Assembly: GCF_003353065.1 (NCBI RefSeq)
Contig: NZ_CP027806.1
Coordinates: 310,001-374,000 of the forward strand
Direction: 5' to 3'
DNA from: Cyclonatronum proteinivorum
GTDB taxonomy: Bacteria; Bacteroidota; Rhodothermia; Balneolales; Cyclonatronaceae
Length of the DNA: 64,000 nucleotides
Positions 30,836 through 44,311 of this stretch are shown here, in pieces (positions within the stretch are counted from its first letter, which is position 1; each line of letters begins with the position of its first letter). The notes under the pieces are model-generated. The model did no database searches. It saw only the letters and a program-made list of their open reading frames with translations, and was not told the DNA's origin. A program made the position numbers and the translations under genes.

Positions 30836-32671
30836 ATGTGCGGAATAGTAGGATACATAGGATTTCGCGAAGCTTCTGATGTAATCATCAAAGGCCTTAA
30901 AAGATTAGAATACAGAGGCTATGACTCGGCGGGAATCGCCATATTGAACGGGACGCTTGTCGTTCGTAAAGGAAAAGGCAAAGTCGCTAACCTTGAGAGT
31001 CTGATATCACAAACAAACGTAAAAGGCACCATAGGAATTGGCCACACACGATGGGCAACACATGGTGAACCCAACGATATCAATGCACACCCGCACTGGG
31101 ACGGAAGTCAGAATTTCGCCATTGTCCACAATGGCATCATCGAAAATTATGACGCCCTCAAGCAGGAACTGCAAAACAAAGGCCATGAATTTCAGGGCGA
31201 AACAGATACAGAAGTACTTGCACACCTGATTCAGGAAATCAAAGAAGTTACCGACGTCGATTTTGAAACCGCAGTTCAGATGGCGCTCAAACAGGTTGAC
31301 GGCACCTACGGGCTTGCAATTGTCAATAAAAATGAGCGGGATAAAATCATCGTTGCCCGCAAAGGCTCACCCTTGTTGCTGGGTATTGGCGATGACGAAG
31401 TCTTCATTGCCTCTGACGCCTCACCTATTATCGAATACACCAACAAGGTCGTGTATCTTGATGATGATGAGATGGCCATCATAAGCCGCGATGGCTATCA
31501 GGTAAAAACCATCTCCAATGTAGCGCTCAGCAAAGAAGTTCATGAGCTCGAAATGAGCATCGAGCAAATCGAGAAAGGTGGTTTCCCGCACTTCATGCTT
31601 AAGGAAATCCACGAGCAAAGCGAAACCATTGCAGACTGCATGCGCGGACGTCTCGTGGTCGAAGACAACAAAATTGTATTGGGCGGTATTTCTGCCGTTA
31701 CCGATCGTCTGGTAAATGCCCGCCGGCTCATTATCGCGGCTTGCGGTACAAGCTGGCACGCCGGTTTGGTTGGGGAATACCTGATAGAAAGCCTGGCCAA
31801 AATGTCAGTCGAAGTGGAGTACGCCTCAGAGTTTCGCTACCGGGATCCGCTCATCACCGAAGAAGACGTCATGCTCGTTATTTCGCAAAGCGGTGAGACC
31901 GCCGATACGCTCGCTGCGGTACGCGAAGCCCGTTCCAAAGGCGCGCTGGTGCTGGGTATCTGCAACGTAGTTGGCTCAACGATTGCCCGCGAAACAGACG
32001 CCGGTATTTATACGCACGCAGGTCCTGAGATCGGGGTAGCTTCTACCAAGGCTTTCACCGCTCAGGTAACTGTACTCGCTATGATGGCAATTTTGCTGGG
32101 ACAGCGCCGGGCTAAGCTCGATGAAAAAGAATCCGCTTCCATCATCAAAGCCATGAGCGAAATACCCGCAAAAGTGGCCGAAATCATGACGAAGTTTGAT
32201 GAAGTTGACGCTATTGCACGTTTGTTTGCCTATGCGCCCAACTTCCTTTACCTCGGCCGCAGCTACAATTTCCCCGTAGCACTTGAAGGTGCGCTCAAGC
32301 TCAAAGAAATCTCTTACATACACGCTGAGGGGTATCCGGCCGCTGAAATGAAGCACGGACCAATCGCCCTGATCGATGAGCTCATGCCTGTTGTGGTACT
32401 CGCTGCCGCAGATCATACCAACGACAAAATGATCAGCAATATCGAAGAAGTGCGGGCACGCAAGGGACGCGTTATCGCTATTACAACCGATAACAATCAG
32501 GATGTGCAGCGTCTCTCAGAATTCTCCATTACGGTTCCGGAAACGCATGATTTGCTGACTCCGCTGTTAACGGTAATTCCGCTGCAGATTTTGTCGTATC
32601 AGATTGCGGTATATCGCAAATGCAACGTGGATCAGCCCCGCAATCTCGCCAAGAGCGTTACTGTGGAATAG
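30836..32671 (+). CDS. glmS: Glutamine-fructose-6-phosphate aminotransferase (isomerizing)
   Basis: Makes glucosamine 6-phosphate from fructose 6-phosphate and glutamine, the entry step to peptidoglycan and lipopolysaccharide amino sugars. The start is fixed at 30836 because the mature enzyme needs cysteine as residue 1 after Met removal: MCGIVGYIG. The longer upstream frame from 30731 is not coding. 611 residues. The glutaminase domain (about 1-235) contains GHTRWATHG and the HNGIIENY loop; two SIS isomerase domains follow (about 285-420 and 455-600, with CGTSWHAG, SQSGETADTLAA, GVASTKAF, YPAAEMKHGPIALID), and the C-terminus is PRNLAKSVTVE. A terminator follows. Confidence 0.97.
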   Translation: MCGIVGYIGFREASDVIIKGLKRLEYRGYDSAGIAILNGTLVVRKGKGKVANLESLISQTNVKGTIGIGHTRWATHGEPNDINAHPHWDGSQNFAIVHNGIIENYDALKQELQNKGHEFQGETDTEVLAHLIQEIKEVTDVDFETAVQMALKQVDGTYGLAIVNKNERDKIIVARKGSPLLLGIGDDEVFIASDASPIIEYTNKVVYLDDDEMAIISRDGYQVKTISNVALSKEVHELEMSIEQIEKGGFPHFMLKEIHEQSETIADCMRGRLVVEDNKIVLGGISAVTDRLVNARRLIIAACGTSWHAGLVGEYLIESLAKMSVEVEYASEFRYRDPLITEEDVMLVISQSGETADTLAAVREARSKGALVLGICNVVGSTIARETDAGIYTHAGPEIGVASTKAFTAQVTVLAMMAILLGQRRAKLDEKESASIIKAMSEIPAKVAEIMTKFDEVDAIARLFAYAPNFLYLGRSYNFPVALEGALKLKEISYIHAEGYPAAEMKHGPIALIDELMPVVVLAAADHTNDKMISNIEEVRARKGRVIAITTDNNQDVQRLSEFSITVPETHDLLTPLLTVIPLQILSYQIAVYRKCNVDQPRNLAKSVTVE

Positions 32672-32692
32672 TTGGTTCCCGATTTCTGTTAT

Positions 32693-32732
32693 AAAGGCAG
32701 TATTTCCACACGGAAGTACTGCCTTTTGTTTT
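32693..32732 (+). terminator. glmS terminator
   Basis: Inverted repeat AAAGGCAGTA / TACTGCCTTT (32693-32702 and 32717-32726) followed by TTTGTTTTTT, 21 bases past the glmS stop. Confidence 0.85.
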
Positions 32733-32771
32733 TTGCGCTTTTTTTGTTTCGATGGAAGTCAACGAGCCCTC

Positions 32772-33335
32772 ATGAAAATCATTCACATTAAAAACATGGT
32801 TTGTCCGCGATGTGTTGAAGCGGTACGGCAAACCCTCTCAGGCATGCAGCTCAAGCCCGACTCGGTTTCCTTAGGCAAAACTGTATTCAGCCAGCCTTTG
32901 CAGCCGGAACAGCTCGGTACACTCGAAGAAAAACTGAAGGCACTGGGTTTTGAACTCATCCGGCCCGAAGCGGCAGATTTGCCCGCACAAATCAGAAGCG
33001 CTGTAATCCGCTATCAACAGTTGCTGGAAGAAGGGAAAGTGAACGGCCTGTTATCCGCATTTCTCGGCTCAAAGCTCCATAAAAATTACAGCTATCTGAG
33101 CGAGCAGTTTTCCAGGGCAGGCGGCCAAACCATCACACAGTACCACGAAAAACTGCGCACCGAGCGGGCCAAAGAACTTCTTGAGCTTGGGCAGCTATCG
33201 GTAGGAGAAATTGCGCTCACACTGGGATACAGTTCGTCTCAGCATTTCTCGGGACGCTTCAGAGAACAGACCGGCTACAGTCCCACAGCCTGGCGTGAGA
33301 AGGGCGGGCCGCGCAAATCACTGGACGCGATTTAG
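32772..33335 (+). CDS. AraC-family regulator with N-terminal HMA-like metal-binding domain
   Basis: 187 residues from the ATG at 32772; the longer open frame from 32604 runs back into the glmS terminator and is not credible. Residues 1-65 resemble a heavy-metal-associated fold with the metal motif MVCPRC (CxxC at about residues 11-14) and a closing KALGFELI. Residues about 75-175 are an AraC-type double helix-turn-helix: FSRAGGQTITQYHEKLRTER, then LSVGEIALTLGYSSSQHFSG and REQTGYSPTAWRE. The next gene downstream is a copper ATPase. I infer a metal-sensing regulator, presumably of Cu(I), that reads the metal directly through the HMA-like domain. No other copper regulator is in the island. Confidence 0.85.
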   Translation: MKIIHIKNMVCPRCVEAVRQTLSGMQLKPDSVSLGKTVFSQPLQPEQLGTLEEKLKALGFELIRPEAADLPAQIRSAVIRYQQLLEEGKVNGLLSAFLGSKLHKNYSYLSEQFSRAGGQTITQYHEKLRTERAKELLELGQLSVGEIALTLGYSSSQHFSGRFREQTGYSPTAWREKGGPRKSLDAI

Positions 33336-36293: not shown

Positions 36294-36368
36294 ATGAGAA
36301 GGAACAAAATGACCGTCCTGAAAGTAGGGCTCGTATTCCTTGTTGTTCTGGTAATGATTGTGGGCTAA
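36294..36368 (+). CDS. Possible 24-residue single-span membrane peptide
   Basis: A short open frame between copA and the CopZ-like gene: MRRNKM, then one uninterrupted hydrophobic span of about 18 residues (TVLKVGLVFLVVLVMIVG). It has a positive N-terminus and a 19-base gap to the next gene. The shape fits small membrane peptides that accompany transporters, but a peptide this short can arise by chance and no family is recognised. Confidence 0.35.
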   Translation: MRRNKMTVLKVGLVFLVVLVMIVG

Positions 36369-36384: not shown

Positions 36385-36603
36385 ATGGAAGATACAATTA
36401 ATATTCGCGTGGAAGGAATGACCTGTGATGGTTGTTCCTCCCGCCTCAAAAAACAACTCGAGAAGCACCCTCAGATTCAGAAAGCCGAAGTCGATCACGT
36501 GAATGGTATCGCGATGATTGCCGGCGAAGTAACCGAAGCCATGGTTGCAGAAATTGTGGAAGCAACTGGTTTCACCTATAAAGGCCCGGATGTAGTTAAC
36601 TGA
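36385..36603 (+). CDS. copZ: CopZ-like HMA-domain copper chaperone
   Basis: 72-residue single HMA domain with the metal-binding motif GMTCDGCSSRL (CxxC near residues 14-17) and the closing EIVEATGFTY. Such proteins carry Cu(I) in the cytoplasm to the ATPase or to a sensor. It is larger in charge variation than the HMA repeats inside CopA. It ends five bases before the cysteine-rich gene, so the two are probably translationally linked. The gene lies between copA and cusA on the same strand. Confidence 0.88.
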   Translation: MEDTINIRVEGMTCDGCSSRLKKQLEKHPQIQKAEVDHVNGIAMIAGEVTEAMVAEIVEATGFTYKGPDVVN

Positions 36604-36607
36604 TCGC

Positions 36608-37174
36608 ATGCTTCTTACCGGTCAGACATACCACCCGAAAATCAGCATCATGCTCCTTCTGAGTATGATGCTTTTTTTGCTGGCACCCGTTGGGGAAGCC
36701 GCAGCTGGTTTTTGGGGCGGAGAATGTCCGGTTGAACTGGCGCGTAAAAACACCGCAGCTGCAACACAAATGAGCTGTTGCCCGTCCGATAATCAGGAAC
36801 GTCTTCAGCCTCAGCATACGGTTCAGAACGGGTCGGTCTTTGATGGTTACCAGGCCTTCATCCCGACACAGAACGGAATGGGCTGTGATACCGCTGCAGC
36901 CTCCACATCCTGCTGCGCGGCCTGCGACTGCTGGATCGACGCCTCTGACGCTGCTGCCGCTGCCATCCCCGCTGTTGTACCAAGAACCGGTTTTGAGAAA
37001 CTACAGCTTGAAGCTCAGGTAAAGCTTCACGTATCATTCTTCCTGAACTTCGTTGCTAAGGTTACCCGTTCAGAAGCGGTCAATGAACGCCTTCAGCACG
37101 CTGATTCAAATCAAAAGCCTTCTCTCGCAGCCGCCCTTCCGCTGCGCGTAGCCTACTGCTGCTACCTCATTTGA
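36608..37174 (+). CDS. Unrecognised cysteine-rich exported protein in copper island
   Basis: 188 residues, no family recognised. A hydrophobic segment (about residues 13-33) reads as a signal peptide or anchor. Ten cysteines fall in clusters: GGECP, QMSCCPSD, GMGCD, STSCCAACDCW and the C-terminal AYCCYLI. The middle is alanine- and serine-rich (DASDAAAAAIPAV). It starts five bases after the copZ-like stop, and the cusA operon follows. Cysteine clusters plus location suggest a periplasmic metal-binding or metal-buffering role. The C-terminal third could be a second membrane-adjacent helix. The coding call rests on open length, spacing and composition. Confidence 0.65.
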   Translation: MLLTGQTYHPKISIMLLLSMMLFLLAPVGEAAAGFWGGECPVELARKNTAAATQMSCCPSDNQERLQPQHTVQNGSVFDGYQAFIPTQNGMGCDTAAASTSCCAACDCWIDASDAAAAAIPAVVPRTGFEKLQLEAQVKLHVSFFLNFVAKVTRSEAVNERLQHADSNQKPSLAAALPLRVAYCCYLI

Positions 37175-37324
37175 TATGAGAAAAGCCGGACTGCACCGCC
37201 CTCCCGCAGTCCCGATATCCCGCACAATTTCATCTTAACAGCCCGCATTCTGTCCGTCAGCTGCGGTACGCTGTTTTTATGGTGATGTGTGTGTAACGCT
37301 TTTTTCACTTCAATTTTGCAGCTT

Positions 37325-42538: not shown

Positions 42539-44311
42539 ATGGAATGGAATAAAAAAACTTTGCTGCTGCTCAGCGCTGTGCTAGTTACCGGCGTATTTTT
42601 GGGATGGCTGCTGTTTGGCGGCAGTCATGGAGATCACAACGGACATGCGCATGTACATCACGATCATGCGCACAATCACGACCATGCAAACGGGGAGGAG
42701 GCCGGGGAAGAAACGATCTGGACCTGCTCCATGCACCCGGCCATCCGTGAAGATCAGTTTGGCCTGTGTCCGATCTGCGCCATGGACCTGATTCCCGCCT
42801 CTGCCGATGACGGCGGCGATTTCGAACTCTCGATGAGCGAGGCCGCCGTTCATCTCGCCGGAATCCGCACCACGGAAGTGATGCTGGCACAGCCGGTGCG
42901 AGAGCTGCGGCTGCCCGGTCGCGTGGTTCCGGATGAACGGCGCCTGCACCGCCTGAGCGCGCATTTCCCGGGGCGCATCACCTACCTGCGGACTACAGAA
43001 ACCGGTGCACAAATCAACCGCGGCGACCTGATCGCACGGGTCTATGCCCCTGAGCTTGTAAGTGCACAGCAGGAGCTGCTTGAAGCCAAACGCCTGGAAG
43101 CACAGCATCCCGAACTGCTGCGCGCGGCAAGGGCGCGGCTGCTGCAGTGGGAAATCTCCGAGAGCCAAATCGACGCCATTCTCGAAAGCGGCAGCGTGCG
43201 GCAGGAGCTCGAAATCTTCGCGCCGGTCAGCGGTATTTTGATGCGCCGCAATGTGGAGCAGGGTGCTTACGTCAGTCAGGGAACCGTCCTGCTTGAGCTC
43301 GCCGATCTCTCCCGCGTCTGGCTGCGCTTCGAAGCCTGGGAAGAAGACCTCGGCTGGCTGCGTACCGGCACTGAAGTCACCTTCAGCACGCGCTCGCAGC
43401 CCGGTCGCGAACACCGCGCGGTCGTTACCTTTATTGATCCGCTCGTTGATGCCGCGACCCGCACAGCCGGGGTCCGGGCCGAAATGGCCAACGCGGACGG
43501 CGCCCTTCGCCCCGGTCAGCTGCTTACCGGCACGCTGCGCGTAACGCAGTCTGAGGCGGCCCTCATGGTGCCCGCAAGCGCCGTGATGTGGACCGGTCCG
43601 CGCTCGGTCGTTTTTGTGGAAGATACCGATGCCGAAACCCCGCGCTTTGAAAGCCGCGAAGTAACCCTCGGCAAGCGCGCCGGTGATTTCTTTGTGATTG
43701 AAGACGGTCTTGAAGCCGGTGAGCGCGTTGTGTTCAGCGGCGCGTTTAAACTCGACAGCGCCTTTCAGCTGGCCGACCGCTTCAGCATGATGAACCGCGG
43801 TCCGGGCCTGCAGCCCGTGCGTCAGGGGCACGGCGACCATGCCGAAGTACGCCGCTTCCGGGATGTGCCCGAAGCCTTCCGCTTGTCGCTCACGCAGCTC
43901 ACCCGCAGCTACCTCGAAGGCAAAGAAGCCTACGTCGAGTCAGACTTTACCGGCTCAGTGCGGGCCTTCGAAACCTTTCAGCAGCAGCTTCAGGAAACCG
44001 AACGCGCGCAGCTTCCGGCAGATATGGTGCATACCTGGCGGCAGCTCTGGCGTACCCTCGATGCGCATGTTAACCTGCTGCTCGCCGCCGGCGATATCGA
44101 AGAAGGCCGTGCACAGTTCCGGCACCTCTCCGACGGCATGGTCGAAGCCGTCCGGCGTTTCGGCGTCGAAGGGGTCGTGTACCATCAGTACTGCCCTATG
44201 GCCTTCAACGACGAAGGCGGACACTGGCTCAGCGCCGAGGAGCCCATCATGAACCCCTACCTCCCCGAAATTATGCTCATGTGCGGGGATGTGATTGCGC
44301 GTATTGAGTAG
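42539..44311 (+). CDS. cusB: CusB-type periplasmic adaptor with heavy-metal-binding and DUF3347 domains
   Basis: 590-residue membrane-fusion protein. An N-terminal membrane anchor (about 6-26) is followed by a histidine-rich linker (about 30-50) and a heavy-metal-binding domain TWTCSMHP/CPICAMDL type, here WTCSMHPAIREDQFGLCPIC (about 60-85). The adaptor core comprises the barrel-sandwich segments SAHFPGRITYLRTTETGAQI and EIFAPVSGILMRRNVEQGAYV, with a long alpha hairpin between, then the beta barrel and the membrane-proximal domain to about residue 420. The C-terminal about 155 residues are a DUF3347-type domain with YCPMAFNDEGGHWLS. Both extra domains fit metal delivery to the pump. Confidence 0.93.
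   Translation: MEWNKKTLLLLSAVLVTGVFLGWLLFGGSHGDHNGHAHVHHDHAHNHDHANGEEAGEETIWTCSMHPAIREDQFGLCPICAMDLIPASADDGGDFELSMSEAAVHLAGIRTTEVMLAQPVRELRLPGRVVPDERRLHRLSAHFPGRITYLRTTETGAQINRGDLIARVYAPELVSAQQELLEAKRLEAQHPELLRAARARLLQWEISESQIDAILESGSVRQELEIFAPVSGILMRRNVEQGAYVSQGTVLLELADLSRVWLRFEAWEEDLGWLRTGTEVTFSTRSQPGREHRAVVTFIDPLVDAATRTAGVRAEMANADGALRPGQLLTGTLRVTQSEAALMVPASAVMWTGPRSVVFVEDTDAETPRFESREVTLGKRAGDFFVIEDGLEAGERVVFSGAFKLDSAFQLADRFSMMNRGPGLQPVRQGHGDHAEVRRFRDVPEAFRLSLTQLTRSYLEGKEAYVESDFTGSVRAFETFQQQLQETERAQLPADMVHTWRQLWRTLDAHVNLLLAAGDIEEGRAQFRHLSDGMVEAVRRFGVEGVVYHQYCPMAFNDEGGHWLSAEEPIMNPYLPEIMLMCGDVIARIE

Follow-up and report, generated by a model that had tools for sequence, protein, structure and literature searches.

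Systems closest to the locus

Bacterial leaders differ in what they sense and in how they act; SecM-like leaders sense export, and CruR and TnaC are examples that work through transcription termination. Two copper-responsive systems are related in principle to the locus under study. In the CutF system of Rhodobacter capsulatus, copper bound by the nascent exported protein holds back the export of that protein, and a stem-loop covering the next start is opened (PMC9973294). In the CruR (DUF2946) system of Bordetella pertussis, copper relieves the arrest, Rho ends transcription and copper thereby lowers expression (PMC9426467). CutF has 45 aa between its two motifs, and the published filters for CutF-like proteins are a length of at most 150 aa and a PP within the last 15 residues (PMC9973294). 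CopL and CzcI, the latter described as a metal-sensing regulator encoded upstream of an RND system, are placed among these proteins, and list D of the same source already includes many Bacteroidota members together with ACR_tran neighbours (PMC9973294). In that respect, the presence of CutF-like proteins upstream of RND genes in Bacteroidota is already known.

The locus described here encodes an exported Cys-rich protein, referred to as X, which is probably a copper-sensing leader that acts in cis during its own synthesis and follows the CutF/CruR principle in a variant found in Bacteroidota. X has in common with CutF that an exported Cys protein lies directly 5' of a copper gene and that an RNA stem, predicted in the case of X, lies over the next start (PMC9973294). 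CutF and the relatives of X in the wider family also share a C-terminal Pro-containing motif, whereas X in the window lacks PP. The two differ in that the last Cys of the Balneolales and HYC_CC_PP proteins (see below) lies about 65-72 aa from the C-terminus, compared with the 45 aa between the CutF motifs, and in that their C-terminal motif reaches the stop codon, with an RNA arm starting a few nt beyond it (PMC9973294). Cys and C-terminal arrest-like motifs at fixed spacing, a position as upstream ORF of copper genes and poor structure are features that the X family shares with CruR (PMC9426467). The RAPP motif of CruR is absent from X, and DUF2946 gave no match for X (E ≤ 1) nor among 28 Balneolales members (E ≤ 0.1). 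Weak matches to the CopL family (NCBIfam NF033807) were found in four of these 28 members (best E 0.0011); X itself matched neither this profile nor that of CzcI.

X is not filed as CutF-like by the published filters, because it fails both length (188 aa) and PP; the two filters are passed together by 28/47 Balneolales and 10/50 HYC_CC_PP proteins. Despite this, X is held to work like a CutF-like leader. Its CCAAC stretch (C102-C106) can be read as the CxxxC motif of CutF-like proteins, but C102 varies within the genus and the family-wide pair is CxC. As far as the open-licence literature reaches, it is new that HYC_CC_PP and the Balneolales family are linked to such leaders, that their Cys-to-stop distance is fixed and that an RNA arm adjoins the stop codon; judged by titles and the start of abstracts, that literature held nothing on these Bacteroidota leaders beyond PMC9973294.

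The X gene and its operon

The window, which is the whole stretch of 64,000 nucleotides that was analysed, belongs to a genome consisting of a single contig of 4.29 Mb and carries a copper operon in the order AraC-type regulator, copA, copZ, X, cusA, OEP and CusB-like gene. The features around X are the following:

36385-36603, + strand: copZ-like HMA protein (Pfam), 5' of X
36608-37174, + strand: X, exported Cys-rich ORF of 188 aa from ATG to TGA, proposed copper-sensing leader
36635-36706, + strand: hydrophobic signal/anchor segment of X (about residues 10-33), from hydropathy; main helix of the AlphaFold2 model
36776-36781, + strand: CC (C57-C58) of X, invariant within the genus
36911-36931, + strand: CC-x-x-C-x-C cluster (C102-C108) of X, proposed metal site; C103, C106 and C108 invariant in the genus
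37136-37174, + strand: C-terminal motif LPLRVAYCCYLI and stop codon of X, conserved right to the stop codon
37325-41125, + strand: cusA (RND pump; ACR_tran match), proposed regulated gene

X starts 4 bases past the end (36603) of the copZ-like ORF, and cusA begins 150 nt downstream of X in the same direction, in agreement with the codirectional metal-homeostasis gene that CutF-like leaders have within 1000 nt; its ATG (37325) was picked by homology, the ORF as listed beginning at 37289. The N-terminus of X, where CutF-like leaders carry a Sec signal peptide, is strongly hydrophobic (Kyte-Doolittle 2.44 over 16 residues). Its ten cysteines are C40, C57, C58, C93, C102, C103, C106, C108, C184 and C185; the columns of C106 and C108 are invariant in an alignment of 28 Balneolales proteins, and 81 aa separate the last Cys of the cluster from the C-terminus.

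Several other elements were observed in this region. A small hydrophobic ORF of 24 aa (MRRNKMTVLKVGLVFLVVLVMIVG; no Pfam match) lies between copA and copZ (36294-36368, + strand), and a similar one is also found 5' of copZ in L021, L022 and L023. The AraC-type regulator 5' of copA (32604-33335, + strand; HTH_18 match) has an N-terminal HMA-like stretch (MVCPRC), and ORFs similar to it lie upstream of X on the opposite strand in L038 and L040. The CusB-like protein (42539-44311, + strand) contains an HMBD metal-binding motif and ends in a DUF3347 domain. Within the signal-peptide codons of X there is a terminator-like 12-bp hairpin followed by a T-run (36644-36680, + strand), which was set aside, a counterpart being present in L046 only among 47 loci.

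In a protein search of 59 genomes, three further members of the genus yielded X orthologues (E 1e-14 to 1e-5), in the same place (copZ-X-cusA) and with 29-35% identity; each of the remaining matches (E 0.006 to 0.08) was either short or broken in frame. A direct homologue search with the X protein on the genome contigs found none, and relatives were therefore reached by means of profiles and gene context, the latter revealing a fourth orthologue of the genus in G001 (L086). The genus alignment keeps C40, C57, C58, C93, C103, C106 and C108 as well as the end L-R-x-x-x-C-x-Y-L-I. The penultimate Leu is invariant over 47 loci and written with five different codons, which indicates selection on the protein. 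As judged from such comparisons, X is a real gene, beyond a chance ORF. The earlier note on this DNA had described a 188-aa, ten-Cys exported protein between copZ and cusA; X fits this description, and the orthologues and the Leu codons bear it out as a gene. Homologues exist beyond the species, with seven cysteines invariant across the genus. The note's statement that no recognised family is matched is likewise true of Pfam and NCBIfam when their cut-offs are applied, matches to DUF6331 and photosystem II K being dismissed as weak, single and below cut-off.

A search of the PDB with X found no relative. The structure prediction that the earlier note had put forward was run with AlphaFold2 on 4 sequences and gave a fold that is not confident (mean pLDDT 37.7), which is weak evidence of disorder because the alignment is shallow. 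Within the wider family, the genus of X departs in the absence of PP from the last 15 residues and in a longer spacer, with 77-84 aa from the last Cys to the C-terminus in five genomes; X in the window retains the Cys cluster, the YLI at the stop codon, its position ahead of cusA and RNA arms that pair over 10 bp.

Occurrence across Balneolales

A Cys-rich exported ORF directly precedes cusA in all 48 testable Balneolales loci of the CusA clade, one of them (L028) counted on the C-terminal piece of X alone. The clade was defined by 50 matches of at least 60% identity in 59 genomes, two of these matches (L035 and a fragment in G022) being without upstream DNA. These 48 ORFs, recognised from their Cys content and C-terminus and partly by eye, are all codirectional with cusA and end in a sequence resembling PPLFLANESFLI at the stop codon. 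In a contrast set of 20 distant RND pump loci (35-48% identity), the same rule yielded a different leader-like ORF in 7 cases and none in 12, the remaining locus (L116) having too little upstream DNA. The ORFs found in L104-L107, L113, L115 and L118 constitute a second type of leader-like exported Cys ORF, with LLI or LLN at the stop codon, before CzcA-like RND genes; those of L104 and L113 had no Pfam match.

The X-type ORF also precedes a multicopper oxidase gene in L152 and L168 (Pfam) and, in L159, a gene likened to a multicopper oxidase by resemblance only. The constant neighbour is a codirectional metal gene downstream, and copZ is not constant. The check put forward in the earlier note, whether homologues always lie beside copZ and cusA, comes out positive for cusA throughout the CusA clade and negative for copZ, as it does for cusA in the three oxidase or oxidase-like loci. 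Searches with the Balneolales profile A2 gave no match in G001, G033, G048 and G219, which belong to the same genus or order; the first three do carry X, recognised from gene context. The synteny between X and cusA would also be explained by a conserved adjacent partner protein.

The HYC_CC_PP family

As judged by a bridging sequence, the only tie between the two, the nearest described family to X is HYC_CC_PP (NCBIfam NF047658). The bridge is a G153 ORF outside Balneolales that is matched both by profile A2 (E 4.7e-9) and by HYC_CC_PP (E 4e-20). X itself is absent among the matches to the HYC_CC_PP model (cut-off 28 bits) at E ≤ 10, its own genome has no match to that model, and in an hhalign comparison of the Balneolales and HYC_CC_PP sets just the last 12 columns align (probability 86). 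No paper was found by family name in open-licence texts.

HYC_CC_PP proteins occur in 45/148 Bacteroidota genomes sampled. Among the 50 best-scoring of the 58 matches in these genomes (the 8 lowest-scoring were left out), every locus is followed within 600 nt by an ORF of 100 aa or more in the same direction, and the Pfam matches of these ORFs, in which multiple counting is possible, comprise ACR_tran (20), TonB plug (16) and HMA (11). Like the Balneolales family, these proteins have a hydrophobic N-terminal segment, a C-terminus of the type YLI or FLI, and a metal gene downstream, which in HYC_CC_PP is mostly one for an RND pump, a TonB receptor or an HMA protein. X in the window shares with them the C-terminal F/Y-L-I motif and the copper gene downstream; their CC lies about 71 aa before the end, compared with 81 aa for the last Cys of X.

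C-terminus and spacer

In both families, conservation reaches the stop codon. The last 12 residues of 42 non-redundant Balneolales proteins carry 2.38 bits per column versus 0.52 at positions -17 to -60, the corresponding values being 1.45 and 0.57 in 49 HYC_CC_PP proteins. The distance from the last Cys to the C-terminus has a median of 65 aa in Balneolales (IQR 64-66.5, MAD 1, 47 loci) and of 71 aa in HYC_CC_PP (IQR 71-73, MAD 1, 50 loci). Two other distances vary more (MAD 8-9 and 4-4.5, respectively), among them that from the first to the last Cys (MAD 9 and 4.5). The spacer between the Cys site and the C-terminus is therefore kept in length and not in sequence.

Predicted RNA pairing between the stop codon and the next start

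In the gap between X and cusA, the RNA is predicted to pair as follows:

37177-37186, + strand: 5' RNA arm TGAGAAAAGC, +3 to +12 after the X stop codon; 10-bp helix (-13.8 kcal/mol), which the MFE fold contains as well
37188-37212, + strand: inner hairpin GGACTGC...GCAGTCC, from the fold of the gap RNA
37237-37278, + strand: inner hairpin AACAGC...GCTGTT followed by TTT, terminator-like, from the MFE fold
37298-37307, + strand: 3' RNA arm GCTTTTTTCA, -27 to -18 before the cusA start codon; partner of 37177-37186 in the MFE fold

The segment 37160-37345, which contains this gap, folds with a z of -3.97 relative to shuffles. Gaps of 46 Balneolales loci (48-466 nt; 60 shuffles per locus, some loci near-identical, L033 left out with a cusA start not matched by the pattern) are more stable than their shuffles, with a median z of -2.7 and 30/46 below -2.

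The specificity of the pairing was assessed by comparing true with swapped partners, the score being that of the best ungapped helix which the 0-20 nt past the stop codon form with the 30 nt that precede the start. For 37 non-redundant Balneolales loci, whose windows were set after pairing had been seen by eye in about six of them, true partners scored -8.63 and swapped ones -6.89 (sd 0.29, z -5.94, 0/20000). The same test on 34 HYC_CC_PP loci not inspected beforehand (L067, with a gap of 393, being outside the tested range) gave -9.44 and -6.37 (z -8.89, 0/20000). Moving the windows brought z to +1.64 in HYC_CC_PP and, with the first window at 20-40 nt and the second covering the 45 nt before the start, to -1.90 in Balneolales; three windows placed 30-75 nt from one or both ends in 27 Balneolales loci with gaps of at least 150 nt gave -0.48, +0.71 and -0.98. 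A generic control of 104 codirectional gene pairs from the window and eight other Bacteroidota genomes gave -1.93. An earlier scoring of long gapped duplexes (z -5.1) was superseded by the ungapped helices. Among the 37 loci, the 5' arm of the window finds a better partner than its own in two foreign start regions, and its start region does so in one foreign 5' arm.

Strong helices (below -9) are present in 14/36 Balneolales and 16/34 HYC_CC_PP loci, and in 17/104 generic pairs. Their 5' arm starts 1-4 nt past the stop codon in 11 of the 14 and 13 of the 16, respectively. A ribosome standing at a stop codon covers the first ~12 nt beyond it, and an arm in this position would thus lie under such a ribosome. 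Examples from HYC_CC_PP include helices of 15 bp (L069), 12 bp (L064) and 11 bp (L066); in L052, a helix of 11 bp lies before a TonB-receptor-like gene. Between L056 and L120 there is a compensating change, the arms being TTAAACAAT/ATTGTTTAA and TTAAACAGTT/AACTGTTTAA. No strong helix was found in the arm windows of the three multicopper-oxidase-type loci (L152, L168 and L159), nor in those of four tested loci of the second leader family.

The hairpin at 37237-37278 and the precedent of CruR with Rho (PMC9426467) would fit a leader that acts by means of transcription termination, through a U-run hairpin or Rho, and not via the cusA start region. This is a rather unlikely reading, given that a simple terminator scan of the gap between X and cusA flagged nothing, including that hairpin, and that the feature common to many loci is the pairing of stop-proximal with start-proximal nucleotides.

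Proposed mechanism

The gene order, the conservation of the C-terminus to the stop codon, the fixed spacer and the locus-specific pairing of the arms are directly supported by the comparisons above. Of these, the C-terminal conservation, the fixed Cys-to-stop distance and the stop-proximal pairing argue for a nascent leader acting in cis over a free scavenger. Such a leader would bind copper, arrest the ribosome, in particular at the stop codon, and switch cusA on in response to copper. X would be exported while being translated; by the time the ribosome stands at the stop codon, a distance of about 65-72 residues in most of the family (81 in the window) would already have put the Cys cluster outside the membrane. 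The CutF authors put the tunnel plus the membrane at about 47 residues (30 plus 17; PMC9973294), and a Cys site beyond that distance would accordingly be outside at this stage. Cu(I) at the Cys cluster would hold the nascent chain, and the C-terminal motif would make the ribosome pause at the stop codon or close to it. In that position, the ribosome would cover the first ~12 nt past the X stop, block their pairing with the nucleotides before the cusA start and leave cusA translatable. Without copper, X would be completed, released and probably degraded, and the stem would close. This sense of the response, from copper through the pause and the open stem to more CusA, was chosen because the target is an efflux pump; for the receptor targets of HYC_CC_PP the response may have the opposite sign.

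The earlier note had suggested a role as Cu(I) scavenger or donor to CusB/CusA. Its view of X as a genuine exported Cys-rich component of the copper operon is upheld, with a tie to cusA across the order. A role of X as a stable Cu(I)-binding protein, periplasmic or anchored (a scavenger, a substitute for CusF or a donor to CusB/CusA), is improbable: although its export, its Cys content, its strict neighbourhood to cusA and the absence of a CusF domain among the Pfam matches of the seven scanned operon proteins would all agree with such a role, it gives no reason for an unconserved spacer of fixed length, a motif ending at the stop codon or the RNA arms. In addition, the downstream gene in HYC_CC_PP varies, with pumps, receptors and HMA proteins among its products, the AlphaFold2 fold on its shallow alignment is not confident, and no PDB relative was found. 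An additional chaperone role of X may exist alongside that of leader. That X senses the export state, for which SecM-like leaders are a precedent, or another metal (zinc, silver or cobalt), as CzcI and the weak match of 1/28 Balneolales members to the NCBIfam CzcI model (E 0.01) might suggest, is very doubtful in view of the copA-, copZ- and cusA-like partners in the window operon and of the multicopper oxidase and HMA proteins elsewhere.

Implications for Bacteroidota

Beyond Balneolales, it is tentatively proposed, with somewhat less than even expectation, that the copper-sensing leader is a phylum-wide Bacteroidota switch with the stop codon as its gate, in which an exported nascent protein would serve as a ruler, with its Cys site 65-72 residues back, and a ribosome paused at termination would open a stem with its 5' arm immediately past the stop codon and its 3' arm close before the start of the gene for a pump, a receptor or a chaperone; the best-sampled branch would be HYC_CC_PP. 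The proposed role cautions against naming such proteins copper chaperones. How metal binding outside the membrane is signalled to the ribosome becomes directly testable through the fixed Cys-to-stop distance and the stop-proximal arm. The proposed role would extend copper-responsive leaders to a second phylum with an architecture of its own, the experimental examples so far, in the literature covered, being from Pseudomonadota, and it would give a protein family widespread in Bacteroidota a testable role that predicts which nucleotides to change.
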